Part shown: positions 11,172 to 43,135 of the stretch, piece by piece | How positions within the stretch are numbered: position 1 is the first letter of the stretch | Layout of the letters: each line of letters starts with the position of its first letter | From: Quercus robur | Lineage: Eukaryota > Streptophyta > Magnoliopsida > Fagales > Fagaceae | Length of the DNA stretch: 64,000 nucleotides | Direction of reading: 5' to 3' | NCBI RefSeq assembly: GCF_932294415.1 | Contig: NC_065539.1 | Location: 36,144,001-36,208,000, forward strand | Position numbers and translations under genes: made by a program | Notes under the pieces: model-generated | What the model was told of the DNA's origin: nothing | The model's database searches: none | Seen by the model: only the letters and a program-made list of their open reading frames with translations

Positions 11172-12389
11172 ACCGTTCCCTGATGCATAAAACAAAATTG
11201 GGATATTATGTTTGTCAAAGAATATTTGCTGTTAAACAATTTTTGTTTGCTCTTAGTAAATTATGCTTACTTTTGGCAACAGATAAGTTTATACTTGAAG
11301 ATCATAAAGACAGTAGCCTTAAAGTTTGAACGGAATGGAACAATAAGCAATCTCAAAGCATTATTACGTGAGAAGGAAGCTCTTTCTGAGAATCATCAGG
11401 AGCTCTTTTTTGCTGGTAATCAGCTGGAGGATGACCAAAGGCTAGTGGATTATGGTATTGAGCAGGGCTCCACTCTCCACCTTGTTCTTCAGAATTTAGC
11501 TGGACTGAAGATATTTATTAAAATACCATCAGATCAGAGAACCATTGAAATTGAAGTGAGGACTTGTGATACCGTCCAAAACATCAAATCAATTATTCAA
11601 GCCAAGGAAGGGATTCCATCAGATCACTATACTCTTATCTATGATGGAAAAGTACTTGAAGATGATGGGATTGTATCCTCACTCAATATTTCAAATAAGT
11701 CAACCCTTCATTTGGTTTACAATCCAAAAGATGTCTTACCAATTTATGTGAGAGTAGGGACAGGAGAGATCTTGAAACTTGAACTTAAACTCCTGTTTAC
11801 CACTCGTGATGTCAAAGCAATAGCTGGGAGCATGATAGGTGTCCAGATGAATGATTGGGATCTGATCTATGCTGGGAAAAAACTTGAAGACTGCAAAACC
11901 TTGGCTTCTTATGACATCAAAGAAGGAACTATCTTAGAGATGTTTCCTGCTGTGATCCAGATATTTGTCAAGACATGGAGTGGGAAGACCATTACTCTTG
12001 ATGTGAAACAACAATCTACCCTCGGGGATGTCAAGGACAAGATTTTTCAGAAACTGAGGATTCCTGGTCATCATCAGAGCATTGTGTTCGCTGGAAAAAG
12101 GCTTGAAGATAACCGTGATCTAGCAAGTTATGGTGTCCAGATGCATTCCACTCTCAGTATGGTTTTTTCGCCTTCACAAAGAATCATTCCGATGCAATTA
12201 AATCATATTGGGAACCCAATACAAAAGTTTACTACCATTCGCATTTTGAAGTCTATGATTGAGAAGAAAATGCGATCTCCTGTGAAGGAAATATACTTTA
12301 ATGGACTAGCATTGCGGGATGACCGTTCACTGGCAGATTACAGGATTAACAGTGATGCAAAAATAAAGGTTGTCATGTATCAACAGTAA
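9246..12389 (+). CDS. Protein with five ubiquitin-like domains, copy 1 (exons 9246-9320, 11283-12389)
   Basis: Exon 1 gives a 25-residue basic/Ser-rich leader (MEPRRNPNRRF...STDEE). It ends at AGAG/GTTCTG, phase 0. Exon 2 starts after GGCAACAG and codes for 368 residues to TAA, 393 in total. Exon 2 holds five ubiquitin-like domains at about 26-99, 100-175, 176-248, 249-324 and 325-393. Ubiquitin landmarks are visible: LEDDQRLVDYGIEQGSTLHLV (domain 1), IQAKEGIPSD (domain 2), and IFVKTWSGKTITLDV with AGKRLEDNRDLASYG (domain 4). No domain ends in RGG or GG, so this is not a processed polyubiquitin. It more likely works as a stable multi-UBL adaptor; that role is inferred. The 2-kb intron carries a SINE. 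Exon 1 is the weakest part; a conserved 45-nt intron segment near 9649-9694 could be an extra exon. Confidence 0.75.
10118..10235 (+). mobile_element. SINE-like tRNA-derived repeat in the UBL intron
   Basis: Box A-like CAGCTCAAATGG (about 10137) and box B-like GGGTTCAAATC (about 10192) lie about 55 bp apart. The same repeat is in the intron of copy 2 (about 26768-26870), so it was in place before the gene duplicated. Confidence 0.55.
10829..10866. repeat. (TA)n(TG)n microsatellite in intron
   Basis: A TATATA run passes into a TG run. Copy 2 of the gene lacks this expansion at the matching place, so it arose after duplication. Confidence 0.85.
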
Positions 12390-16747: not shown

Positions 16748-17913
16748 TTACTGATAGTACCTCCTCAGGTGCTCCACATTCCAAGGATGTTCCAATTTTC
16801 TCCCGTCCAGGGCCTCCAAGTAGTAGGATCCTTGCCTTTTACAGTTGATAACTCTATAGGGTCCTTCCCAATTTAGGCCTAACTTCCCATGTGCTGGGTT
16901 TTTGGTTGACAAAGAGACTTTTCTCAGGACGAGATCTCCTATGTTGAAACGCCTTGGCTTCACCATCGCATCATACTGCCTAGCCATGAGGTTCTTGTAC
17001 TTTGCTGCCCTGTGTTCTACGTCTGCCCTTACCTCGTCTATCAGATCGAGGTTCAAACAGAGTTGCTCCTCATTATCCTTGTCTTGATATATCATCACCC
17101 TATGATTGGCCATATGTACTTCTACAGGTATGACTGCGTCGCTTCCATAGGCTAGCTTGAAAGGAGTCTCTCTCGTAGGGGTTCTCACTGTGGTCCTATA
17201 CGCCCATAAAACTCCTGGTAACTCGTCTGGCCATATTCCCTTTGCCCCCTCAAGCCGAGTCTTGATGATTTTCAACAAGGATCGGTTTGCAACTTCAGCT
17301 TGGCCGTTGGCTTGGGGTGTGCAGGTGAGGAATAATGGTTTTGAATTCCAAAGTGTAAGCAAAAGTCCCTGAACAGTGCATTATCAAATTGTCGTCCGTT
17401 ATCAGACACCAATACCTTCAGTACTCCAAATCTGCACACAATGTTCTTCCACATGAAATTTTTTACATTCTGTTGTGTGATATTTGCTAACGGTTCAGCT
17501 TCCACCCATTTTGTGAAATAATCGATGCCCACCACTAGAAACTTCATCTGCCTTGTGCCTAGAGGGAAAGGACCCAAAATGTCTAGTCCCCATTGTGCAA
17601 AGGGCCATGGTGCCACCATCGGGGTGATGTATTCTGATGGTTGTCTGGGGACGTTACTAAACCATTGGCACTGGTCGCAGACCTTGACGTATGCTTTAGC
17701 ATCAGCTTGCATATTTGGCCAGTAATACCCTGCACGGACGACCTTGTGGACAAATGACCTGGCTCCTAAGTGATTGCCACATGCTCTTTCATGAACTTCT
17801 CTTAGTACGTAGTTTGCTTCGTTTGGAGCTAAGCACCTAAGATAAGGTTGGGAAAAGCTTCTCTTGTATAGCACTTCGTCCATAAGAACGTACTTAGCCG
17901 ATCTCACTCTCAA
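16748..17913 (-). pseudogene. Integrase of element B
   Basis: Two overlapping frames together give a nearly whole Ty3/gypsy integrase. 17913-17272 contains the HHCC zinc domain (HERACGNHLG, then CDQCQ), the first catalytic Asp in the GLDILGPFPLG region, and SDNGRQFDN with the second. A frameshift at about 17290-17330 then moves the reading into 17362-16748, with NGQAEVANRSL (catalytic Glu), WPDELPGVLWAYRTT and, at the C-terminus, LNWEGPYRV and HPWNVEHLRRYYQ. All three catalytic acids are present, so the frameshift is the main damage. Confidence 0.9.
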
Positions 17914-17943
17914 CTTCCTGGCTTCGTCCTTCTCTTCTGGTAG

Positions 17944-18435
17944 TCATCCATCTTTCAAGTATGATATAATCGGAATCATCCAATTTCCTCTACTATCCAC
18001 CTGTTGTACTCCCGGGATATCTATACTTGGCATATACTGAACTTCATCAGATTCGTCCATTGATTCATTCGCTGAGGCTTCTTTTGCTATGGTATCAACT
18101 TCCACGTTCTCCTCCCTTGGGATTTGAACGAAGTCAGCTTTTTCAAATCTTTTCATAAGGCGCATCACCCTACTAAGATATTTCCTCATCCGTTCTTCCT
18201 TTGCTTCATACATCCCATTTACTTGCCCCATAATCAACTGAGAATCCTTCAGGACGAGTATAGACTTGGCTTCCACAGACTTAGCTAATTCTAGCCCTTT
18301 GAGAAGGGCTTCATACTCGACTTCATTGTTAGTTGCTTGGTACTGTAAACGAACCTTATGTTTCAGTTTGTCTCCTTCTGGGGATTGTAGGACCACACCA
18401 ATTCCACCTACATGCCGTGTAGACGAACCATCCAC
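17944..18435 (-). pseudogene. Second (aRH-type) RNase H of element B
   Basis: An open frame of 163 codons. MDGSSTRHVGGIG gives the first Asp, NNEVEYEALLKGLELA the Glu, and VLKDSQLIMGQ the next Asp; the usual Gly before DSQL is replaced by Lys. IPREENVEVDTIAKEA gives the last Asp, and a linker toward integrase follows. This is the extra RNase H typical of the Tat group. The upstream linker is broken by stops. Confidence 0.85.
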
Positions 18436-18654
18436 ATGGACGACCCATCTCTTACTATCTTCTGTCTCATCATGACTTAGGGTAAACTCCGCAATGAAAT
18501 CTACTAGTGCTTGAGCTTTTATGGCATGCCTTGGTTGATATCTAATGTCAAACTCACTGACCTCTACAGCCTACTGGATCAATCGTTCTACAGCTTCCAA
18601 TCTATTTATTGCCTTCTTGAGCAGATAATCTGTCATGACATTAATGACATGTGC

Positions 18655-20300
18655 CTAGAAATAATGCCTCAGCTTCCTGGAAGCGGTGATCAATGCGAAG
18701 GCTAATTTCTCCATTTGTGGATACCGTCCTTCTGCTCCCCTCAATACCTTACTCGTATAATACACAGATCTTTGCACTTTATCTTCTTCTCTTCTCATGG
18801 CATGCGGGGTTACTGCTATGTATAAATATAACTCCTCTCCTACTACTGATGAACTTAGTAATGGAGCCATGGTAAGGTATGCCTTCAGATCTTCGAAAGC
18901 TCTCTGACACTCATCGGTCCATTCGAATGCTTTACTAAGAACCTTAAAAAACGGCAAACATTTGTCAGTGGCTTTAGAGACAAACCTGTTGAGTGCAACA
19001 ACTTGTTCAGTAAGGGATTGGATTTCTTTGGTATTTTGCAGAGGCTTCATGTCCAGTATTGCTTGAATTTTATCAGGATTCGCTTCAATTCCCCTGTGGG
19101 AGACCATAAAGCCAAGGAATTTCCCTGATGATACTCCAAAAGCACATTTGCTAGGATTCAGCTTCATGTGATATTGTCTCAATGTGTCAAATGTCTCCTG
19201 CAGGTCATCTAGATGCCTTCCCTCGTCCTGACTCTTCACTAGCATGTTATCTACATAGTCTTCCACATTCCGCCCAATCTACGGGCGAAACATGTGGTTG
19301 ACCAATCTCTGATATGTCGCCCCTGCGTTCTTTAAGCCAAATGGCATCACCTTATAATAGAATAAGCTTTGACTGGTGACAAAGGATGTTTTCTCTTGGT
19401 CTGTCTCGTCCATCCTTATCGGATTGTATCCAGAAAAAGCATCCATGAAGCTAAGCAACTTGTGCCCCGCAGTTGAGTCTACCAGCTAGTCAATGCGTGG
19501 CAGCGGATAACTATCCTTGGGGCAAGCCTTGTTTAAGTCAGTGAAATCTACGCACATTCTTCACTTGTCGTTTGCCTTTTTGACCATTACTACATTGGCC
19601 AACTAATCCGAGTAGTACACTTCCCAAATAAACTTCGCCATCATCAACTTTTGAACCTCGTCTTTGATAGCATCATCTCTCTCAGGGCAAACACCCTCTT
19701 CTTTTGCCGCACTGGCTTGGAGGAAGAACATGCATTCAGACGGTGGGTAATGACACTAGGGTCTATACCCGGCATGTCCTCATGACTCCACGCAAACACA
19801 TCAATATTTTTCTTCAAAAACTGGACGAGGTCCTTCTTAATCTTCTCTTCTAGATCTACTCCGACCCTGGTACAGCTCTTAGGGTTATCTTCATCCAAGG
19901 AAATATCTTTCAATGCTTCAGTAGGCTCTGCTACAACTCTCTTTTCTTCAATATTCATGGCTTGAACTTGTTCATCCATGGCCAACATGGCCAAGTAACA
20001 TTCTCTTACTGCTAGCTAGTTGGTCCCCTTGTACCTGCCCTACTCCGTGTTTTGTTGGAAACTTGACTGATAGGTGATAAGTAGAGGTAACAGCCTTCCA
20101 ACTATTCAAAGTTGGTATTCCAATTATGGCGTTGTAGGAAGATGGACAATCTACCACAAGAAAGTTCACATCCTTGGTGATTTGTCGTGGGTATGCCCCA
20201 ACTACCACTGATAAGGAAATAGTACCCACGGGTTGCGCCTTCATTCCACTAAAACCTAATAGGGGGAGTTTACTGGACGGAGCTGGTCTCGTCCTAACCT
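18655..20300 (-). pseudogene. Reverse transcriptase and Ty3-type RNase H of element B
   Basis: Pieces in order along the - strand: an RT approach region with SYNAIIGIPTLN (20244-19972); DLVQFLKKNIDVFAWSHEDMPGIDP (19994-19644); the palm region (about 19640-19270), interrupted by stops; and an open frame from 19266 with YVDNMLVKS, LNPSKCAFGV and GKFLGFMVS, then the connection and first RNase H (VYYTSKVLRGAEGRYPQMEKL). The polymerase active site should read YVDD; its second Asp is Asn here, which abolishes catalysis in any reverse transcriptase. The change fits a G-to-A transition. Confidence 0.9.
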
Positions 20301-20306
20301 CATCTG

Positions 20307-21770
20307 CTAAAAAGCTGGATAATATAAAATGTCTGCCGAGCTTCCGTTGTCCACAAGCACTCTTCTAGTTGTGTAGTCAACAATTAATAAGGTGATGATG
20401 AGAGCATCATCATGGGGGTGATGAATTCTCTCAGCGTCTTCATCCGTGAAGGTGATTGCTTGTTCATCCGTCCCTGTGGTCTCGTCCAAGGAAATTCCTC
20501 AACTTCCCTTGCCTTATGAGATTTTCAATTTGCTGCTTTAAATCAAAACACTCGTTTGTATCATGACCATGATCCCTATGGAAGCGACAATACTTGTTCC
20601 TGTTGTGCTTATTGGGATCTCCCTTCATTTTCTCTGGCCACTTCAAGGAAGGATCTGCATAAGGACCTGCTCAAGTGGGATGTTCAAAGGGGTATATTGC
20701 TGGTTCCGTGTTGAAGAGTCTGGCTTCTTACTATCTCGGTCTTTCCTTTCTTCCGTCTGTCCCTTCTTTGGACGAAGGCCTTGCTCAGGATGGCAACTGG
20801 GGTTTGCGTCTACTCTCTCAGACCTCTTCCTCTTCTTAGCAATGATCGCGTCTTCTGCATTCATAAAATTTTGAGTCGAATGGACAAGTTCGGCCATGGA
20901 CTAGGGCTCTTTTTCATAGAGTTTATGTATAAACAAATCTGAATTCACCCCATTATGGAAGGCCGCCAATAAGAGCTTATCATCTGCTTCGTCCACACTC
21001 AGGGCTTCTCTGTTGAAACGGGTGATGAATGACCGCAAGCTCTCGTTCTCCCCCTGCTCTATGATCAACAAGCTGGACGAGGAACGCTTGTGCCTTTGTC
21101 CCCCAATGAAATTGTTAACGAACAACTTGCTCAACTCTTCAAATGAACTTACTGAATTTGGGGGTATTTTGCTGAACCAAACTCGTGCTGGGCCCTTGAG
21201 GGTGGTAGGGAAGGCTCTACACATTATTTCGTCAGGCACCCCTTGAAGATGCATGGTGGTCTTAAAGGTGGCGATGTGATCAAATGGGTTGCGTGTTCCA
21301 TCATATGAATCCAGAGAAGGCAACTTGAACTTTGATGGTAGAGGGTGACCGTTGATGGAAGCCATGAAGGGGGAATCAGTTCTGTGAACCAAATCTTCTA
21401 TCGGATTCACCCTCCTCATATTCTCTTTCATTTCCTCCATGACTTTCTTCATTTGGTCTATTTCTTCTTTCAAGTGTGGTACCGTTCGTGAAGTGGTGCC
21501 TCTGAACTAACTTCCAATTTCAGTATTCTCTCTATCACCATGACTCTGTGTTTGTCCTCTTTCTTCACGTTCTTCACGCATCTGGCTCCTCATATTAATC
21601 TCCATTTTTAACTCTTGGTTTTGGCGAGTCAACTCCACCATAGCGGCCGCCATAGATTGCGCATGTTGGACAGATGATGTTTGCATGATCGGTGCAGATT
21701 GGCGATCGCGATGAGGGTTGCTACTTCCCTGATGGCCTGGGCTAGTAGCCCTTAATCTAGTCCGAACCAT
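20307..21770 (-). pseudogene. Gag and aspartic protease of element B
   Basis: Gag is set to start at ATG 21770 (MVRTRLRATSPGHQ). The frame runs through an in-frame TAG at about 21507 into the retrotrans-gag core: DLVHRTDSPFMASI, YDGTRNPFDHIATFKT, FPTTLKGPARVWF and ESLRSFITRFNREAL. Another TAG (about 20901) splits EKEP and SMAELVHS and fits a CAG-to-TAG change. A frameshift near 20645 follows. The CCHC-like zinc knuckle is at CRFHRDHGHDTNECF (about 20590-20540). The protease has its LVDNGSSADILY motif near 20340, with Asn in place of the usual first Gly-type neighbours. Gag packages the RNA; the protease cuts the polyprotein. Confidence 0.85.
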
Positions 21771-26634: not shown

Positions 26635-28885
26635 TTAAAAAAAAAACTGATCCAATAGATATAAGAAATAGAATTGAGTGAAATGAAATTTAATGATATT
26701 CACAATGATCTTTATAGCTTATGTGTTTGAATTGTAGTTAAGCAGTTTGATGAAGGATGGATGATTGGTGTGGTGCCAAATGCACTTCCTCCTTCCATAA
26801 TAATGAGATGGAGGGTAAGGTCTTGGGTTCAAAACTCACTGGGTGTGTATAATTTACCAATAAAAAATGGGTATGGTGAATTAATTGGCACATATACAAG
26901 TTTTTTGACTGTGGTAGTCAGTAGTTAAGTCATCCCTGCCCATTTCCATTAACACTGGCTTGAGGTTTGAGATTTTAGAGATTGTGAAGTGTATAAAGGG
27001 TGGAAACCCCAATTTAAGGGTTGGTTTTAAATGTGCCACTGACATTTTGAGACAAAAATAACTGCAGTAAAACAGCATGGTTAGCATTTGCTTTTATACT
27101 AAATTAAATGAATAGACTTAGGGGTGGGACATGGATATATGATCTTGTAATGTGTGAATTTTTGTTTGGTGTTTGATTCTTGCATCGCGCAGACATTTTT
27201 GCACAAAAATGTTGCTTGTTTTGTGTGTGATTGGCATGCCAATCTTTCTCTTAAATATCTGATTTGGTCATACTATCATTTTGCCATTATCTCATCTCTA
27301 GAATATATACATGTACAGATAACAATTACTTCTATCTCATCTCTTGATTATGTACATGTACAGATGACAATTTTGTTTGTACATGCATATGTTGTTTCTG
27401 CTTCTTCTATTTTTTTCACACATATCAAGAGGGAATAGACACGTATAGAAGTAATTCTTCTCTGTGGATATTTTGTATGAACTGAATTTAATTTCCCAGA
27501 TAATTCCTATTATTATACATGCTATAAACTGCAGCTAAGTTTAGCTTCCTAGGTTTGTTGGGTTTCTATAACAGTGGTGGTCCTGCTCAACAACTCTAAT
27601 CAATCTTCTGTTCTCATGGTTACAAGGCCTTCAGCAGTATATTCTTTTGTATTTGTCTCCCCCCCCCCCCAAAAAAAATGTTTGTTGGAACATTAAGTCT
27701 GTCAAAAAATATATGCTTCTTTTAAATAATCTTTGTGCGCTCTTAGTAAATTATACTAGCTTTTGGCCACAGATAAGTTTATACTTGAAGATCAAAAAGA
27801 CAGTGGGCTTAAAGTTTAAACGGTATGGGAAAATTAGTGAACTCAAAGCATTTTTACGTGAGAAGGAAGGCATTTCTGAGAGTCATCAGCAGCTCTTTTT
27901 TTCTGGTAATCAGCTCAAGGATGACCAAAGGTTGCTGGATTATGGTATACAGCAGGGCTCCACTCTCCACCTTGTTAGCCAGGATTTAGCTGGAATGAAG
28001 ATATATGTTAGATTACCATCAGATCAGAGAACCATTGTAGTTGAAGTGAGGACTTGTGATACTATCCAAAACATCAAATCAATCATTCAAGCCAAGGAGG
28101 GGATTCCGTCAGATCGGTACACTCTTATTTATGATGGAAAACTACTTGAAGATAATGGGATTCTAGCCTCACTCAATATTTCAAATGAGTCAACCCTTCA
28201 TTTGGTTTTCAATCCAAAAGATGCCATACAAATTTATGTGGGAGTAGGGACTGAAGAGATTGTGAAACTGGAAGTTAAACTTTTGTTTACCATTCATGAT
28301 GTCAAAGCAATAATTGGGGGCATGATAGGTGTCCCGGTGAATGATTGGGATCTGGTCTATGCTGGGAATAAACTTACGGGTTGCAAAACCTTGGCTTCTT
28401 GTGGCATTAAAGATGGAACTGTCTTATCGATGTTTCCTGCCATGATCCAGATATTTGTCAAGACATGGAGTGGGAAGACCATTACTCTTTATGTACAACA
28501 TCATTATACCATCAGGAATGTCAAAGACAGGATTTTTCGGAAACTGAGGATTCGTTGTGATTTTCAGAATATTTTATTTGCTGGAAAAATGCTTGAGGAT
28601 AACCGTGATCTAGCTAGTTATGGTGTCCAGATGCATTCCACTCTTAGTATGGTTTTTTCACCTTCACAAACAATCATTCCAATGCGAATAGATTGCATTG
28701 TGAACCCAATTCAGAGATTTACCACCATTTGCAATTTGAAGGCTATGATTGAGAAGAAAAGGCGATTTCCAGTGAAGGAAATATTCTTTCATGAAGAAGC
28801 GCTGCAGGATCACCGTTCACTGGCAGATTACGGGATTAACAGTGATTCAATTGTAAGGGTTGTCACATACAAAAGTAAAGTTTAA
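25863..28885 (+). CDS. Protein with five ubiquitin-like domains, copy 2 (exons 25863-25952, 27773-28885)
   Basis: Paralogue of the gene at 9246-12389, same intron place and phase. Exon 1 has 30 codons (MGTRRNPNRWF...TSTQEE) and ends at AGAG/GTTCCC. Exon 2 starts after GGCCACAG and adds 370 residues, 400 in total. Five UBL domains are present, e.g. QLKDDQRLLDYGIQQGSTLHLV (domain 1), IQAKEGIPSD (domain 2), IFVKTWSGKTITLYV (domain 4). Diglycine ends are missing, as in copy 1. Exon 1 differs from copy 1 by 15 nt, a multiple of three; this supports it as coding. The intron is also related over much of its length. No frame damage is seen. Domain 3 has TGCKTLASCGI where copy 1 has EDCKTLASYDI, so the two proteins may be diverging in binding surface. 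Confidence 0.78.
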
Positions 28886-33015: not shown

Positions 33016-33402
33016 AAAAGGCTAAAATGTGATTACAGCTCATGCTCTACATGTATTAATACAGAGAGAGAAGTTTTGTTGGAAGAATTAGGGAATCTAA
33101 AGAGAGATGGAGGTTGACTAATGGAATTATCATGCTAGGCTACTAGGATACCACTCCACTAATATTATACTCCCTTCGTCCCAGTTTGTTTGTCCTCTAT
33201 TCTATTTTAGGATGTCCCAAAATATTGTCCCGTTTCTAAAAATAAAAGTTATTAATTTACTAATGTTCCTATTATACCTCTTCTTTATTTTCAAAACTAT
33301 TTGAAAAAAAAAAAAAAAAAACTAACAAATATTAAAAAAAAATCAATCTAATTGGGGCACATTTTTAGTTGCCTCATTAAGAATAACTCTTTTAAAAAAA
33401 AA

Positions 33403-33612
33403 GGATAATTACATTTTACCCACTTGTGGTTTGCCTCTAATTCTATGTGCCCACCCATGGTTTAAATTTTGACACTTTGCCCACCTGTGATTCTGACCGT
33501 GAGTGCTCCGTAACCCACCTCAATATTTTTCGTTACTCTAACACCAAATAAGTAAAAAACACATCCCAAAACGGATCAAAACTCACTCTCACTCCCAAAA
33601 CTCACTCACTCC
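33403..33612. repeat. Left terminal inverted repeat of the MULE
   Basis: About 210 bp, mirrored at 42632-42842. It contains short internal repeats such as TTGCCCACCTGTG/TTACCCACTTGTGG and ACTCACTC. Confidence 0.9.
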
Positions 33613-35332
33613 ATCCAACCCAACGAAGATCCTACACAATGCAATGCGCTTCGCTTGAGACTCTAGACCAAGAATCATCTGGGCTTTGATCGTGCAAGTA
33701 ACCCGAGGAAGAAGGAGCTTTGATTCTGGGTTCATCTGAAGCTTGGGTGAGTTCGGGTCAGTTCATTGTGCAGTAAATATTTTGTATTTGATCCGTTTGT
33801 TTTCTCTTGATTCTGGGTTCATCTATTGCTTGGGTAAGCTTTAAGTTTTGGTTTTTCTCTGTCCATATGCTCCGTTCATCTGATTTTTTGAAACCTAGGG
33901 TTTTAAAATTTTTTTTCGAAATTGGGTCATCCTTCAATTTGCTCTGTGCTTAGCTTTGTTTACTTAATCTTGTACTTTTACTTAATGATATTAAGATATG
34001 AATATGGCTGGTTGTTGTTACATATGTGGGGTAGTTTTTTTTCCCCCAGAATTTTATGAGCTAGGAATGCTATATACTTGCCCTTATTTCTCCGAAATGA
34101 TGTACATTTATGAAGTTGCATTCAGATTTCCTGAGTTCATGTATATTTTTTTTTTGTAAAGGGAAGAAAAGCTCAATGCAGAGATGCCACTAGTGAAACT
34201 TACTATAGTATGGGGTTTACAACTTTTGAATTATAAATATGTTTTGTATTGACATTAGCCAACTAGTCTAAAATAATTTGTATGCAAGTTATATAATCTG
34301 TTTTTAGCTAAGAACTATATGGAGTTTCATCATGGCTGGGCAGTAACAGAATTTATAGGTTATAAATTGATTTGTAGTATCATGAAAGTGCTTAGTAGAG
34401 TTTGACTACTAAATAACCTTATATTCCTTTTATATAACCTTATTTAGTAGTCACTGTGGATTATTACACTGCAATTTTGTAATCTTATAATGACATGGTA
34501 TGCCATAGTGTACTATCAAAGGTTATGGAGTTAATTTTGGAACTTGGGCTGTAATGAAGAGGAAGATGGAATAAGATGACATTGTAGCAAATATTGGAGT
34601 CACTTGCTTAAATGCAGGGTGGGACACGAAATTGGGAAGTAGGTGGTGTGTATGGAAGAGTGTGGCTTTGCAGTTGGTATAAATAGAGAGATTAAAGGCC
34701 CCACACTACAGGTAAGGTGATAAGTTAGTTGATGGGGGAGTTATTCATGTGGACAAAGTGTGTATACAAAAATTGTGCAACTTGTTGGATGTGCTACTCT
34801 CTTTTCATTCCTTGTAGTGACATTGGTTTAGTGGGCATCTTTTACATCTCCATCATAAATAGAGAGATTAGAGGCCCCACATTGTGCAACTGGTTTAGTG
34901 GGCATCTTTTACATGACACTGATTAGATTAATGCTGACAGAGATGACTAAGATAGCTAGCACTAGATCTATATCTGCATAGTTTTTTAAGCCTTATCAAA
35001 TTATAAGGGTTATAACAGAAAGCATTGACATGGGATAAAGGTGAAAAGAATGGAAAGTCATTTATACAGCCTCTGTATGTGTATGTTTTAATTTGCCTCT
35101 GTTTTTGTAGTTGTAATTGAGTCCACAAAATATTACACATACAAAACCACAAATTAAAGCCAGATGGCAATACTAAGTGGTCAAATTGTTAATCAGTAAT
35201 TGCTTCTTTCTTGGAATTTTGGTGTTTCTTACAAATTTGAACTATGGTTTATGCTATCACACATGCTGAAAATTTGAACTATGCCACTTGTAATAGATTT
35301 GTTGGTCTATAAGCTTGTAACAAATTTTTGTT
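33613..35332 (+). other. MULE left arm: presumed promoter and leader of the GRF gene
   Basis: No open frame of note. A local direct duplication, with TAAATAGAGAGATTA(A/G)AGGCCCCACA at 34680 and 34857 and GGTTTAGTGGGCATCTTTTACAT at 34825 and 34890, lies in the middle. It may hold a leader exon, as in other MULE genes; this is inferred. Confidence 0.4.
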
Positions 35333-37011
35333 ATGTCTTCATCAACTTGCAATGGCTCTACAACTAGTGGTTTCTACCACGCCGAAGATGGTCATTTATG
35401 TATCCTTGAGAATTGTGCCCTACGAACAAGTCAAAAAGCTAGTAACTATGGAAGAAGATTCCTCGGTTGTAGTCAATTTAATGTAAGAAACAATTACATT
35501 GTTGTATTTGAATTGAATTGAATTATTAGTTGTGATTAATTGTGAACTGTGAAATTAATTGTTATAATTGTAATGATTAGGTTTGTAAGGTTGAATTTAA
35601 TCAACCATCTTGTTGGCTTTATTCCGTGCCAAATTTGCTTGTATTTCAGCATTTAGTAACCCTGTATTTATGTGGGTTTGTTGTAAGGGTAGTGAGTGAG
35701 ATAGAGTGATTGAATGCTCAAGAGTGTGCAAGAAAACAGAGTCTCGCGGCTTGATCTCACGGGTGACTCGCGGTTGTAAGCCGCCAGAAGCAGCACACGT
35801 GCCAAGCATGCCAGAAGTTGAAGCGTCATGCTAACTGAAGCACTACAGGACAAAATAGGACAACTGGCCGTTCTGTTATCGCGCGGCTGGATCTCGTGAC
35901 TCAGTCAAGCTGCGAGCCACCCCTGTTTTGAAAAACCTGACGTTTCACATTCTTCTCTCACCCCAGTATAAATACCCCTCATACCCACAAAAGAATGAGA
36001 GCTTCTAGAGAGAATTTTGAGAGAGAAACCCTAGAGTAAAACAAGATTGATTCATCTACAATCTTTACATAAGAGTCTCTTCAAATTCCTCAACTCTTTT
36101 CCTCTCCATTGTCAAATCCTTGAGAGGCATTTTACCAAAACCTTTTTCTCACCATATCCATTACTGTGAGAGAGCTGTTTGGTGTTCTGGGAAACAGTTA
36201 GGAAGGAACCAATTTACATCGGTTGATGCTATGGTCAAGTAGCAGAATCCGGGAAGTTAGAAAAGAAATAGGTTCGGCGCAATCTCGTTGGAGCAAGAAG
36301 CTTGGAGGGCTTAGGTGCACTAGGTAGATTAGGCTTGGAGGGTCTATTGCTGTCCATGTATCTCAACTACATTTTCTAGTGGATTGTTTACCGCTTGGAG
36401 AGCGGCGGAGAGGTTTTACGCCAAGGGCTTCGGTTTCCTCTTTGATAACACATCGTGGGTTGTCCTTGTGTTTGCATCTTCCTTCCCTTTTATCTTTGCC
36501 TTTTATTATCTGCTGTGGGTTGTGGTTTTAATTTGGCTTAGATTGTTTTCCAATTCTGTTTTATAGCTTTTGTTCATTTTCCGCACACTAGTTGTTTGAC
36601 ATAAAGCTTGAATTGATTAATTTGTAAATTGAGGGTCTAAACGTTCAAGGGTATTTTTACACTATTTGAACTTTCAAGGTTGGTCCCAAATGTGGCTTCT
36701 TTCAGTGGGTGGATAACGAAACTTGTAAGAGTAACTGTGAAAGGATAAGTATGCTTGAGAATGAATTGCAGCTTGCAAATCAGAGAGAAATGACAACTAG
36801 GGAAATAGAAGAAAGAGCTAACCGGAGGGAAAGAGAAACTCATGAGCTTTATGTAGAAGCTAGGGAGAAACTTAAGAGGGTTAGAGAGAGTGAGAGATTG
36901 TACAAGGTGGCACTAGTTTTGTCATGGTTATTTTTCATTTTTGTAATGTTGTTGTTGTGTTTTGCCTTAGTGAACAATAATGTAAGGGTGAGGAACCTTA
37001 ATTTGCCATGA
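35333..37011 (+). pseudogene. GRF zinc-finger, coiled-coil, transmembrane protein carried by the MULE (split by solo LTR)
   Basis: Exon 1 is 35333-35482 (50 codons, phase 0), with HLCILENCALRTSQ and GRRFLGCSQFN, ending at AAT/GTAAG. Exon 2 is 36679-37011 and starts V-G-P-K-C-G-F-F-Q-W-V-D, completing a GRF-type zinc finger (Cys pair, GRRF, GC, CGFFQW). A Glu/Arg-rich coiled coil follows (about residues 64-120), then one hydrophobic segment (VALVLSWLFFIFVMLLLCFAL) near the C-terminus. The rebuilt frame has 160 residues. Plant genomes have many such proteins, some annotated as At4g04775-like; their function is unknown. A 1093-bp solo LTR now separates the exons at the acceptor, so splicing would depend on the right-hand AG copy. 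Apart from that the frame is intact. Confidence 0.8.
35584..36676 (+). mobile_element. Solo LTR, 1093 bp, with AGGTT target duplication
   Basis: Starts TGTAAGGTTGAATTTAATC and ends TTTGAACTTTCA. The 5-bp duplication AGGTT is exact (35579-35583, 36677-36681). A TATA box, TATAAATA, is at 35967-35974 on the + strand. No internal retrotransposon sequence is present, so it is an LTR-LTR recombination product. A Copia origin is likely but not proven. Removing it restores intron end GATTAG and exon start GTTGGTCCC of the host gene. Confidence 0.88.
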
Positions 37012-37160
37012 TGCTTGGGGTGGGGGGGGGGGGGTGTTGAAATGTGATTGGGTAATTGAAATGTTATTGTATCTATCTCTTGAAATGGGGATGTTGAAAT
37101 GTGATTGGGATGTTGAAATGTTATTGTATCTATCTCCTAAAATGGAAGTGTTGTTTTTGT
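37012..37160 (+). repeat. G run and tandem duplication in the 3' region of the GRF gene
   Basis: A run of G residues (37018-37034) is followed by two copies of TTGAAATGTGATTGGG.A.TTGAAATGTTATTGTATCTATCTC, about 60 bp apart. Confidence 0.8.
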
Positions 37161-38204
37161 GCAAATATTCTTTAGTATAAATTTTTTTTTACTTCATTCT
37201 GTGATTGATATATATTGGCACAAAGTGTTATGTGGAAATGTTAATAACATGAATGGAACATGTTATTACATATTCATTTTGGTTCAATACATACGCATGT
37301 GTCAATGCAAGAATAATATTATGCTTTACAGAGGCAAGTTGGAACTTGGAACTTGCCAATGATTAATAATCTTCCATAAAAGCATTCTCATTTGGGTTTG
37401 TCAATTCACCTTTTATTTTGTGTTGGAAAGATTGTGCAATAATATAAAAGGAGCTGGGAACCCCATTGTTTTGGCCTATATAAATAACTCTGCACATTTC
37501 AAGGCTATGAAAATACTCTATCAAACAAAAAGATATTGTAGGTTGCATATAAACTTGTGGGATATATAATGAATAAATAATTGGTTCTAGACACAGTGTC
37601 CAATTTTTTTAGAACATACCAAAATAATACATAAAAATCACTCCTGTAACAACAAAATAATTTTCTTTGCCACCTATCATCTACACATAATGTAAACTTC
37701 ACATAGACAAACAAGCTCAAAGACATAAAGTTAAGGTATGGAACATGGCACATTAACTTTGCTGTGTCATAATTTTGCTATGACATAATTTTCTTTGCTG
37801 TGTTAATGCACACCTATGTAAATCCACCAAAAGCACAACAAGACAAGCAAAACACAGTCCTGTGTAAATCCACTAAAAGCAAAGACAAGCACAACACAAC
37901 AAAATACTTTATCTTGTGTCAATGCACATTAACTGCTTTTAATAGAAGTGAACAGTCATTGTAACTTTATGTCACATGCATACATAATTGCCAATATTGT
38001 TTTTGGCACATCCTGTGACTTTACACATCTTCCAACCAAAACCCAACTACTAGTCCACCACACATTAGACATATACATCTTCCAACCAAAATTGCCAATA
38101 TTGTTTTTGACACTTGACCATGCTCAAGCAAATACTTTAAGCAAATACATTAAGCGTGGGAACTATAACAAAAAAAGTGGTTGAAACTTTAACTTCTTCC
38201 ATCT
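37161..38204. other. Region between the two convergent MULE genes
   Basis: AT-rich. Short direct repeats of ATTGCCAATATTGTTTTTG (37988 and 38091) and GTGTAAATCCAC-type words are present. Both genes should end their transcripts here. Confidence 0.5.
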
Positions 38205-41200
38205 TTATTTACTGCTTTTGGTGCTCTTGCCAACTACCTTCTTGCCCTTTCCACCAACTAGTTAAAATTTTGTTGGCCTTGATACACCAAACGTTTTGCC
38301 TTTAAACCCCCTAGCAGCACCACCACCACTTCTTGACTTGGTACACCACTAGTGCTCACAGATACACCTGGCTACATAACCAAAATCTAGCAGTTAGCAA
38401 GATGGTCCAACAATAGCAAGAGGAAAAAAAATAAACAAAATAGAAGAAGGCAGAGGTGCTTGAGATGGTAAAGAATCCCATGTCTCTCTAGGGGTATGGA
38501 AGCTCAGTTGTGAGGATGAAGAGAACCAGTTGGCCCTAAATCTAGTTGGAGGTTGAGTTGCTACCTCAGATCTATTGTTTGGTACAGGTTGAGATGCAAT
38601 TTGACCAAAAGCTCTATATGCAAGCTGAGATCTAGTACTTGGTGGCTGAGATGCAGTTTGAGGTGTTGCAGTCTGCTTTGTTTTTGTAGATTTACTACCC
38701 TGTGCCTACAAAGAGGGTTGTACAAATTACATACACATGAAACATAGGAGGAAATGAATATAGTTCAAAGCATGGAAATACTTACAGCTTTTGATTTAGC
38801 AAGTCTATCTCTTTTCTACCATGGAGTTTCACCAGTGATGCCTACCTTGCACCCTCTTCCATTATATCCTTCTTTCTTGCACTTCCCACACTTGATTGTT
38901 TTGTTCATCCTAGAAACTCTATAAGGGTTCCTTAGCTCTTCAGGATCTCTTTTTCTTTACTTTGGTGGTCTGCTAGGTGGTTTATACACATGAGGAGCAA
39001 CAGGAGCAGGTTGGTTAGTCTCAACCCACTCAGACTGGCCAGGCATTGGTTGTATTATCTCTTTGTAAGTTTCAACAAATGTCTCTTTCCAACAACAAGG
39101 ATGCACATATTCCTTCACTTTCTCCAGGTTCTTAACAATAGCAAAGATCCCATGTTTGCAAGGAAGTCCTGTCAAATCCCAAATCCTACAACTGTATGCT
39201 TTCTTAGCCAAGTCAACCATATGTCTCTCACGACCATTATCAACCTCATACATGAAGCTGCCTACTGGAGTAGCACTGAAAGGTATAGACTCATGTTTTA
39301 ACTTCTCTAATATGTCTTGAATATTAGGACACACCGTTCCAGTGTATTTTTCTATACCTTTTTGTTTTTTGTATTGTTTGGTCATGAGCCTAACTTTGAT
39401 CCACTCCAACATTGCTAAAATTGGCTTATCCCTAACTTCTAAAATCATGGCATTAAAAGACTCACTCAAGTTATTAGCTAAACAGTCACACAAAGCTCTA
39501 CTACTAAAGTGAGACTTAGACCATTGTGCAGGGTTGATGTCAGCAAGATACTCCCATGCCTTGACATCCAAATCCTTCAGTTCCTGCATTCTTCTCTCAA
39601 ACTTCCTGATTGTTGTGGCTCCAGCGCATCTCCACAATGCATCCTTCAACTCCAAGCCCTTATGATCCACTTTAAAATTATTATAGATATGCTTCACACA
39701 ATACCTATGCTCACAAGTTGGGAACAGCATCTCAATTGCAGATATAAGGCCCTAATTCATATACAAAACAGATCAAGTAAATATGTTAGTTAAACATGTT
39801 GAAATGAACTCAGGCATGTATTATTGAACTTTAAATATGTGGGTTAAATATGTTAGTACACTACTAAAGTCATACTTTTTGTCTATTAGTGATGAAGACT
39901 AGATTAAGTTGCTCTAGATTCCCAATGTAATCTGAAAAATGCTGCAGAAACCATACCCATGAATCTTTGTTCTCTTACTCAATAACAGCAAATGCAACTG
40001 GGAAAATGTTATCATTTGCATCTCTAACTACAAGAGAAAGTATTTGCCCCCCAAACCAATGATTGGTCTACAACCTCCCAAAAAACCAACTTTTTGTGCA
40101 TTATACCTAATATACATTCTCTTAAATTTGGGCAGTGCATTTTCATCTTCCATTCAGTTTGCAAAATAACCCTACTTCCTTTATCATTCAATCTTATCAT
40201 CTCTGCATAATCATTAAGCTTCCCATATTGCAGCTATTCATCCCCAGTAATCAAGTCAGTAGCTTTCCTTTTTACCCTATACACCTGACTGTAACTTATG
40301 TCAATTTCAAGTGCTTGCTTCACATGATGTTGAACACCAGCCACTTTCCAATCAGGATTTTTGTCAAACTCCTGCATAAACTTCTTTGCAACATAACTTG
40401 AAGTCACTTGGCTGTGTTTGAAGGATTTAGGGCAGGTGCACTCTAGATTGAATGTTTTTATTTGGAATGTTAACTCCCCAGGTAGTTGAGATGCATAACA
40501 CCTCCATCCACATTCATTTATGCAATAAACTGATATCTTCTTCTTCTCGTTTAGCTTGAACTTGATATCTACTAGCTTCTTTATAGCATATTCCCTCAAT
40601 GCCTCCCTAAATACCTTAGAGTTTGGAAACTTCATTCCTTTCTTTAACTCTGGTTTTCTTATGTCAGTTTGGGCATTAAACTCAGGTTCTTTTGCAGCAA
40701 TTGGTGCTGGCTGATCATCATCAAACCCTGCTAAACTTTCCATGTCATCTTCAAGAGGTGGGTCAATCCATTCACCCTCTTCAAGAGGTGGGTCATTGTC
40801 AGCTGCAGTAGTCCTATGTGGAGCTACATACACAAGTGGATCCTCATGTGTAGATGACCCATCATCTCCCTCAGAGGGCCTATGTAAGGTTGTTGCATTG
40901 ATACTAACTCCATCATGTGTAGATGGCCCATCATCTACATTTCCAAATACATCATCATCAAAATCTGGCCCCTCAAACCCTTCCTCCAACCAATCAAAAT
41001 CTTCTCCACCACCTCCTTCAGCATCCACATTACCTCCCTCATGCAGCACAGTAACATCATCATCATCATTCTGACCCACCTCATGCACATCATCATCATT
41101 TGCTACTTTCTCATTACCAAATGGTTGTTCAACTGCAAGTGGCTCCTCACCACTCTCAACATATAGTATTATCTTATCTGTAGGCCATGCAGCATGAATC

Positions 41201-41459
41201 TCACACATATAAACTACATCATTATCTCCATTTATAAGCCTGAACCCTTGCTCCAAATTACCTCCAGGAATAGATAATGATATCTACTTGTATTAACTAC
41301 CCTCACATCATAACAAATATCTTGTATTTCAAAATAACTAAGTTTATCTGGGTCAACATTATCAACAAAAGAAGTACTACCTCCTAAATATACCAAATCT
41401 GGGTTCCACACAAACTGGCCACCATGATGAATCTCAAAATTGAATGCCAAGTCAACCAT
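38205..41459 (-). pseudogene. MuDR-type transposase of the MULE
   Basis: Starts at ATG 41459 with a PB1-like domain (FEIHHGGQFVWNPDLVYLGG), frameshifted at about 41260-41280. An acidic region rich in D/E (about 41130-40900) follows. The MuDR N-terminal DNA-binding region (PNSKVFREALREYAIKK, CGWRCYAS, HHVKQALEIDISYSQVYRVKRKA) is at 40640-40250. In the core (40240-39876) the stretch GLDGCHLKG, which holds the first catalytic Asp, is deleted between IIGL and GGQIL. The second Asp is lost as well (TNRQK for the usual SDRQK). A phase-correct intron lies at 39752-39875. Then come MLFPTCEHRYCVKHI and a SWIM zinc finger (CRIWDLTGLPCKHGIF) in 39730-38957. A CGKCKKEGYNGRGCK knuckle (about 38890) and a Ser/Thr/Gln-rich, basic tail end at TAA 38205. 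It cannot catalyse transposition. Confidence 0.88.
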
Positions 41460-42149
41460 TTGCATATAAAATACAACAGAATAAAGTATGAGATGGGCTT
41501 GCATGTGAAAAAGTATCATGTGGTCTTGTGGTCCACACAAAGCACAACACAAAAATAGACAATATTATTAAAAGTTTTTGTTCTGTTTTTGGGAGACAAA
41601 CCCTTTTTTTATGACAAGCATATTCCTTTTTTCACATTTGGTTTGAAAAGCACAGTATATATGTTGGCATATATACTCTCTCTCTCTCTATATATAACTT
41701 AGAATAATGAAGTGCTTTGTATGGGAGGAATGGGACCAGAGAGGAAATTTCCAAGCTAATCAGTAATTTAATTGAGTGCATGTGTATAAAAGGCACTTCC
41801 ATCCATTTTTCTTGTTCAGATGATCATGCAAATATAGAATGGAGTGCATGTGCTCAACTTTCCCATCCAAGAAAAATAAGTATGCATTGTATGCATAAAT
41901 GCAAGAGTTGATGTTACTTGAGAATCAACTTCCATTTTTTATTCTTGAAAGCTTATATAATCGAAGTGGGTGTACAGACAGTCATGTATCCTTTTTTACA
42001 ACCAAAAGATGGTGAGTGAAAAAAGAACAATATGCAGTCTAATCAGTAAGAGATATAAGAACTAAAAGAGGCTGAATGAAAAAAGAATAATACGCTTAAG
42101 AAGAAAAATATTTTGGTGTTGCCCGAGTTTGTGAGAAGTTGTCTGAGTT

Positions 42150-42550
42150 AGAGATGAAAATGGGTCAGATGCAACACTCTTCATCTCAACAATTAAAAAC
42201 CCAATTAAAAACCCAAATGCAACACTCTTCATCTCAACAATGGGTCAGATGCAGCACTACCAGTTTCATGGTTTCAAAAATTAAAAACCCAATTTGGAAG
42301 AAAGAATTAAAAACCCCAATTTGAAACCCTAGGTTTCAAAAATTAAAAAGTAAAAAAGGTTTTGATCTACCTGCAATAGTTGAACAGAGGAGGATGCACA
42401 ATCAAAACCCAGGTTCAATACCCATGATCAAAACCCAAGAGCATGCACGATCAAAACCCAAGTTCAATACCCACGATCAAAACCCAGGAGCATGCACGAT
42501 CAAAACCCATGATCAAAACCCAGGAGCATGCACGAATCAAAGCCCATTGT
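42150..42550. repeat. Subterminal tandem repeats of the MULE right arm
   Basis: Units with GCATGCACGATCAAAACCCA and TTCAATACCCA(T/C)GATCAAAACCCA repeat several times (42390-42545). GCAACACTCTTCATCTCAACAA occurs twice (42169, 42219). A donor-like GCAG/GTAGATC near 42370 on the - strand suggests that a leader exon of the transposase ends here. Confidence 0.75.
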
Positions 42551-42631
42551 AGGATCTACCACAGCTAAACAGAGGAGCAACTGTGTCTTTCTTCCTCAGC
42601 TCAGATCTGCCACAGTTGTCTCAAGCGAGTG

Positions 42632-42842
42632 GGAGTGAGTGAGTTTTGGGAGTGAGAGTGAGTTTTGATCTGTTTTGGGATGTGTTTTTTACTTATTTGG
42701 TGTTAGAGTAATGGAAAACATTGAGATGGGTTATAGAGCACTCATGGTCAGAATCAAAGGTGGACAAAGTGTCAAAATTTAAACCACGAGTGGGCACATA
42801 GAATTAGAGGCAAACCACAGGTGGACAAAGTGTAATTATCCC
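42632..42842. repeat. Right terminal inverted repeat of the MULE
   Basis: Inverted partner of 33403-33612. Confidence 0.9.
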
Positions 42843-43135
42843 AAAAAAAAAAACTGATAAATTTATTTAAGAGTAGTTTTGTAAACTTTTGCATTTTTAT
42901 AAAGCAGACAAGATAATAAATAATGTTCCCTTAAAAAATTTGACTTTTCAAAAAAGACAAACAAATTGGGACGGAGGGAGTATATTTTTTGGACAAGGCT
43001 GTTGCTTTTGACACGATCCCAACCCTTAATTTATGGGGTGATTCCACTAATATTGCTCAACATGAGTGGCTGCGGGTAAGATATTAGCTATCATTTCCAT
43101 TAAAAAAAAAATACTAGCTGTCATTAGTTTAGGTA

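Follow-up and report, generated by a model that had tools for sequence, protein, structure and literature searches.

We describe a Mutator-like element (MULE) at positions 33402-42842 of a 64,000-nucleotide stretch of the Quercus robur genome (the window, to which our coordinates refer; L-numbers denote fetched loci and C-numbers contigs of the same genome), and find that a small gene for a GRF zinc-finger protein with one membrane segment is a regular second gene of its lineage, forming with a MuDR-type transposase gene a co-mobile core of conserved convergent order. Of the 40 best-matching transposase places scored in the genome, 38 have a GRF gene convergent with the transposase: 33 at a short distance, two as a part of the gene and three across a longer gap. 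The window copy itself is, judging by its sequence, very probably a dead member of this two-gene lineage, arranged as terminal inverted repeat, rightward GRF gene, leftward transposase gene and terminal inverted repeat.

Structure of the element and its two genes

The whole of 33402-42842 is one MULE, bounded by inverted ends of 210 nt (33403-33612 and 42632-42841) with 92% identity (92.4%, E 1e-84), much as an earlier note on this DNA had claimed when it placed inverted ends of about 210 bp here. Because the ends of related short elements start with GGGATAATTA, the element was redrawn to 33402-42842. Its flanks, TAAAAAAAA and AAAAAAAAA, match at 8 of 9 positions and lie within a poly-A tract, so that this target duplication is weak evidence when taken alone. 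Stronger proof of a single insertion comes from the two flanking sequences, each of which is one half of a single miniature inverted-repeat transposable element (MITE), which we take to be of the Stowaway family; its inverted arms (33161-33194 and 42956-42989, 88%) pair across the ends of the joined flanks. Long terminal inverted repeats and a target duplication in the 8-11-bp range characterize MULEs, and both were found, the duplication also in the related copy L054 (9/9 by eye, in a TAA run). Among 11 end pairs found in 18 loci, the 9-bp duplication was perfect in eight, carried one mismatch in two and four mismatches in one. The features of the element and its borders are as follows.

33168..33401 (no strand): left half of the split Stowaway-like MITE with TA flank and left target duplication copy (33393-33401), from inverted arms and alignment
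33402..33612 (+): left terminal inverted repeat, 92.4% against the right end
35333..35482 (+): GRF gene exon 1, encoding the start of the GRF zinc finger; open frame with GT donor, same exon in L054 and L055
35584..36676 (no strand): LTR-like insert (TG...CA) at the 3' end of the GRF intron, AGGTT at 35579-35583 and 36677-36681
36679..37011 (+): GRF gene exon 2, remaining zinc finger, coiled-coil-like stretch (by eye), C-terminal membrane segment and stop
38706..38956 (-): transposase 3' part, decayed, with what we take to be a CCHC-like zinc knuckle, from translation
38957..39751 (-): transposase piece with SWIM finger (0.002, below cut-off)
39752..40233 (-): transposase DDE region, broken by a deletion, frame shifts and stops, with a probable intron, from translation
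40234..41283 (-): transposase N-terminal half, MuDR DNA-binding domain (PF03108, 2.9e-11)
41284..41459 (-): transposase N-terminus in a different frame, presumably PB1-like, no Pfam match
42632..42842 (-): right terminal inverted repeat, from alignment with the left end
42843..42987 (no strand): right target duplication copy (42843-42851) and right half of the split MITE, from alignment

The left gene has an intact frame of 160 aa in two exons (35333-35482 and 36679-37011). Its spliced product belongs to the GRF family (Pfam PF06839, 6.8e-8, 32.9 bits against a cut-off of 25.9), and the finger also matches the GRF structures of NEIL3 (PDB 7omk and 7jl5, E 2.4e-6 and 3e-4). A single hydrophobic segment occupies residues 127-145 (mean hydropathy 2.9), about 15 residues before the C-terminus, and the gene has the composition that the earlier note had given it, namely two exons, GRF finger, coiled coil and one membrane segment, reading inward from the left end. 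The 1.09-kb insert resembling a long terminal repeat (LTR) has no counterpart in the copies L054 and L055, and the introns of aligned copies measure 67-103 bp; by this comparison the insert is younger than the element and has enlarged the GRF intron, whose splice acceptor was preserved through the AGGTT duplication. A placement in which the insert interrupts exon 2 with AAGGT duplicated was ruled out by the insert-free copies, which fit AGGTT and TG..CA at the splice acceptor.

The right gene, convergent with the GRF gene, begins at 41459 and extends on the minus strand as far as about 38.7 kb. Several frame shifts and stops interrupt it. It encodes a MuDR-type transposase (DBD_Tnp_Mut 2.9e-11; SWIM 0.002, under the cut-off; MULE domain 0.039, in a broken region), so that the transposase which had been claimed to read inward from the right end is indeed there, though broken. 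By-eye comparison with L055 indicated that the region of the first catalytic Asp is deleted and the second Asp replaced, the catalytic roles of these two residues being our assumption. As read from these lesions, the window transposase is a pseudogene, and a working enzyme cannot come from the copy at 33402-42842. L055 retains an open frame across the DDE region with a MULE domain match of 5e-11, which together with DBD_Tnp_Mut in the window identifies a MULE-type DDE transposase. By hand estimate, the difference between about seven disablements in the window transposase and none in the GRF frame is not significant.

Pairing of the GRF gene and the transposase across the genome

DNA searches were run in the window's own 785.7-Mb genome, using GRF exon 2 (best 40 of 57 candidates scored, giving 40 places) and a 795-bp piece of the transposase (best 40 of 197 candidates scored, likewise 40 places). 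At 36 of the 40 GRF places identity was at least 80% over almost the entire exon. A GRF exon lay within 5 kb of 33 of the 40 transposase places, convergent in all 33 cases and separated by 1.2-1.9 kb, and reciprocally 33 of the 40 GRF places had a transposase within 5 kb; about 0.02 pairs would be expected by chance for two random sets of 40. At three further transposase places the convergent GRF exon lay farther off, 11.8, 14.0 and 18.6 kb away, gaps which perhaps result from nested insertions. In two more, the C-terminal part of the GRF gene was seen convergent at the edge of the stretch, at 2.2 kb in L077 (C5:4950250, 73% of 41 residues) and at 3.3 kb in L080 (C4:61499556, 77% of 210 bases). 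The transposases of these two loci are more distant from the window copy (85% and 78% identity, respectively), and since both still show a GRF part, the pairing persists at 22% DNA divergence. As for the remaining two places, L076 (C3:32678527) is a shortened transposase copy with no GRF gene within 2.2 kb, and L078 (C2:15015796) gave no GRF call either way. These counts bear out the proposal of the earlier note that the GRF gene is the second gene of a MULE lineage, and the loss of the gene from other copies, which that note had named as counting against the proposal, was not what we found.

The pairs at C40:5864636, 5894746 and 5924856 follow one another at intervals of exactly 30,110 bp, which suggests a single tandem duplication, either a recent event involving a block of 30 kb or an artefact of the assembly. 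Scans of viral and prokaryote collections gave no match for the window transposase or GRF gene, and plasmid records gave a single one, in a Vibrio.

Two copies, L054 and L055, were taken as 10-kb stretches. The window aligns colinearly with each of them across about 4.6 kb, in three pieces of 83-94% identity, and the two align with one another across 4.8 kb at 91%; the two-gene core is common to all three. Both ends of L054 carry GGGATAATTAC and are bordered by TAATAATAA, in a TAA run that makes the register ambiguous, and L055 has inverted repeats of 812 bp (94%) with an incomplete right terminus. Because the end-adjacent regions of L054 and L055 differ from those of the window, the core has been joined with more than one set of ends. 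Two convergent genes between the ends are conserved among the copies, the presence of both ends having been verified for two of them, the window element and L054.

The left end itself had 41 matches, both own ends included, when the best 40 of 1240 candidates were scored, and the ends alone are a poor probe. Two of 30 end loci belong to the window element itself. For 26 others a partner end was present, within the locus or elsewhere among the listed matches, which delimits elements of about 1.3-2.3 kb; L014 and L026 have no partner. Neither gene was found in four inward 10-kb stretches, L041 and L042 (corresponding to L014 and L026) and L043 and L044 (short pairs). Across L010-L044 the MULE ends bound numerous such short elements, and neither the GRF gene nor the transposase was found in them. 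A set of end matches at 86% identity has equal scores, which suggests an amplification burst.

GRF genes outside the MULE

A genome search with the GRF hidden Markov model (HMM; best 150 of 235 candidates scored) gave 20 places, a list from which the split finger of the window is absent. Two of them, L001 and L007, lie 18 kb apart downstream of TIR-NBS-LRR-like genes and have intact frames with GRF finger, coiled coil and membrane segment; in the 10-kb stretches around them (L046 and L045, respectively) there were no MULE ends, no transposase and no other transposon. A different GRF/membrane gene stood convergent with a PIF/Harbinger-type transposase in all four of the stretches L039, L040, L048 and L049. 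Pfam matches identified the transposase in L040 (Plant_tran 1.8e-5) and L048 (DDE_Tnp_4 7.2e-14, Plant_tran 1.3e-8), and L039 and L049 were assigned to this type by DNA likeness.

L045:5152-5574 and L046:5181-5612 (C40, 8.14 and 8.16 Mb): intact GRF/membrane frames, TIR-NBS-LRR-like neighbours named from translation
L039:4483-8958 (around L006), L040:1040-5412 (around L003), L048 and L049 (C4, C40, C37 and C38): GRF gene paired with PIF/Harbinger-type transposase

One end of the PIF/Harbinger-type element, GGGCCCGTTTGG, is clear; a second end was looked for and not found, and the element is not fully delimited. L005 and L008 share the core of this GRF set, and five further HMM places may belong to it, a guess from profile range alone. 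The idea that the GRF family was spread by the transposon therefore holds for the copies dispersed with the MULE core in the Quercus robur genome, but does not extend to the two intact frames without a MULE or to the set accompanied by a PIF/Harbinger-type transposase.

Selection, rival explanations and a possible role

Twenty-three GRF copies were aligned (the window, L054, L055 and 20 short fetches), that is 23 of the 40 places and mostly the most similar ones. An intact frame and a GT..AG intron were found in 13 of the 23; many copies are nearly identical, and therefore the GRF gene was probably intact at the last spread of the family.

Several results weigh against a second gene that is kept for its function or that always travels with the transposase. 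On a FastTree tree of 22 copies (the 5'-truncated L062 left out), with changes counted by parsimony and a neutral silent share of 0.283, internal branches carried 14 silent, 44 replacing and 5 stop-related changes (omega 1.33, p 0.33) and terminal branches 53, 114 and 8 (omega 0.91, p 0.56), so that purifying selection on the GRF gene was not detected within the family, while the transposase piece gave dN/dS of 0.38-0.60 among pairs of the window, L054 and L055. These tree counts are weak either way, because the internal set is small and includes branches that link dead copies. Pairwise dN/dS of the GRF gene ranged from 0 to 1.84 over 17 pairs, and variants scored against the majority comprised 16 silent, 43 replacing and 4 stop changes among the shared ones and 26, 65 and 4 among the private ones. 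The 40 transposase places, moreover, are those closest to the window copy, with 157 of the 197 candidates unscored, and sample one lineage. Seven GRF places out of the 40 lack a scored transposase in the surrounding 5 kb: the three with long gaps, three partial matches (positions 147-333) and one full-length copy of 95% identity at C3:57717809 (GRF gene L058). Finally, L047:4918-5433 (C3:34969259) is homologous to the MULE GRF gene but without the intron, and a single stop interrupts it where the exons had been joined; it has no transposase and no paired or inverted ends in the surrounding 30 kb, and is possibly a retrocopy or a stray. In favour of the gene, on the other side, the MULE GRF protein and this distant homolog share 72 of 152 residues, the N-terminal part being poorly aligned, and the dS of 0.89 and dN of 0.40 (dN/dS about 0.45) point to long-term constraint on the protein type, whichever its carrier.

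We tentatively propose that the GRF protein is an accessory protein in transposition, an idea we put forward at somewhat less than even confidence. The GRF finger binds single-stranded DNA in NEIL3, APE2 and TOP3A, and tail-anchored proteins are recognized by a membrane segment that lies no more than about 30 residues from the C-terminus. An N-terminal GRF finger, a coiled-coil-like middle and a membrane segment near the C-terminus would fit such a protein, whose anchor could display the finger on the nuclear envelope or the endoplasmic reticulum. Once the element has been excised, the protein would most likely bind, at the nuclear periphery, exposed DNA of the transposon or the gap, and might favour re-insertion, the step ascribed to maize mudrB (linked to re-insertion in PMC6446971).

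It is also possible, and only slightly less likely in our view, that the GRF gene is cargo, a host gene captured once by transduplication and then amplified between the ends with no part in transposition. MULEs frequently capture genes (PMC13317346), purifying selection on the GRF gene within the family was not seen, the genome contains transposon-free GRF genes, and short non-autonomous elements with the same ends, like the shortened copy L076, do without the gene; as to a possible donor gene elsewhere in the genome, L047 is a homolog with neither a transposase nor paired ends nearby, but is itself interrupted by a stop. On the other hand, the gene is kept convergent where transposases have diverged by 15-22% (L077 and L080), it has its own intron and a full frame and is no fragment, and a second GRF set is convergent with another type of transposase. 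Anti-silencing, in which the GRF protein would lift methylation of its own family as VANC does in VANDAL elements, is unlikely: an extra MULE gene with such a task does have a precedent in VANC (PMC5735166 and PMC13317346), but one would hardly expect a chromatin factor to have a membrane anchor, and VANC carries DUF1985/DUF287 (PMC5735166), neither of which the GRF protein matches. That the GRF gene is a chance neighbour or was inserted separately into one element, for which the LTR-like insert in the intron might speak, is refuted by its co-location at 33 of 40 places, by the absence of this insert from L054 and L055, and by the lack of ends around the gene, which the earlier note had set down as a test and for which the left half (33613-38200) gave a 51-bp palindrome at 34403-34453 as the one inverted repeat found.

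The layout of this two-gene MULE has a close parallel in maize MuDR, a MULE with long inverted ends and two inward-reading genes, mudrA and mudrB, one of which encodes a MuDR-type transposase; the mudrB product is not known to be a GRF or membrane protein. At4g04775-like plant proteins, which the window protein presumably resembles, combine a GRF finger, a coiled stretch and one membrane segment, and are numerous and annotated as host genes without a known role. NEIL3 shares the GRF finger, but is a nuclear repair enzyme without a membrane segment. Some stretches of this genome pair a different GRF/membrane gene convergently with an unrelated transposase of the PIF/Harbinger type, whose elements usually have a Myb-like extra gene. 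The MUDR and MUDRAVI2 clades (Dupeyron et al. 2019, PMC6446971) likewise comprise MULEs of flowering plants, whose ends measure 30-320 bp and which have a single gene or two, a SWIM finger and an extra gene that is often antisense; the accessible portion of that paper gives the antisense gene as PMD, and names mudrB, mutB, VANB/VANC and PMD as extra MULE genes. ULP1 capture and VANC are treated in the accessible portion of PMC13317346, and the term 'GRF' is absent from these portions of both papers. VANDAL/Hiun elements (VANA, VANB and VANC) are plant MULEs with extra genes of their own, but are described as non-TIR MULEs (PMC13317346), and the portions consulted, PMC5735166 included, name no GRF among their genes. 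The window GRF protein is not of the VANC type, its three other Pfam matches all being weak and none of them DUF1985/DUF287. A published link between GRF proteins and MULEs was not found in titles, abstract starts and term counts of the papers listed, a weak negative that covered few subscription papers, with Repbase outside its scope.

Second MULE genes are known (mudrB, VANC, PMD genes and ULP1 genes), with roles that are mostly open. The present findings provide an unexplained plant GRF/membrane protein type with a genomic home, make its copy number explicable in the Quercus robur genome, caution gene annotators that such 'genes' can be parts of transposons, and offer a testable candidate accessory factor with an unusual membrane anchor. 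The PIF/Harbinger parallel would widen the matter to plant DNA transposons generally, and raises the prospect, to which we give cautious and less than even credence, that proteins with GRF finger, coiled coil and tail anchor are a recurrent accessory module, convergent to the transposase in at least two unrelated superfamilies (MULE and PIF/Harbinger). If so, a large part of the GRF/membrane proteins that are still unexplained in plants would come from transposon genes or from genes descended from them, and one step of cut-and-paste transposition in plants would take place bound to a membrane.

Elsewhere in the window, a broken retroelement lies on the minus strand at about 16748-21506, Gypsy-like by eye (of two pieces scanned, one matched reverse transcriptase and RNase H), and two related genes at 11184-12389 and 27572-28885 contain five ubiquitin-like units each (ubiquitin 5.5e-74 and 9.1e-69).

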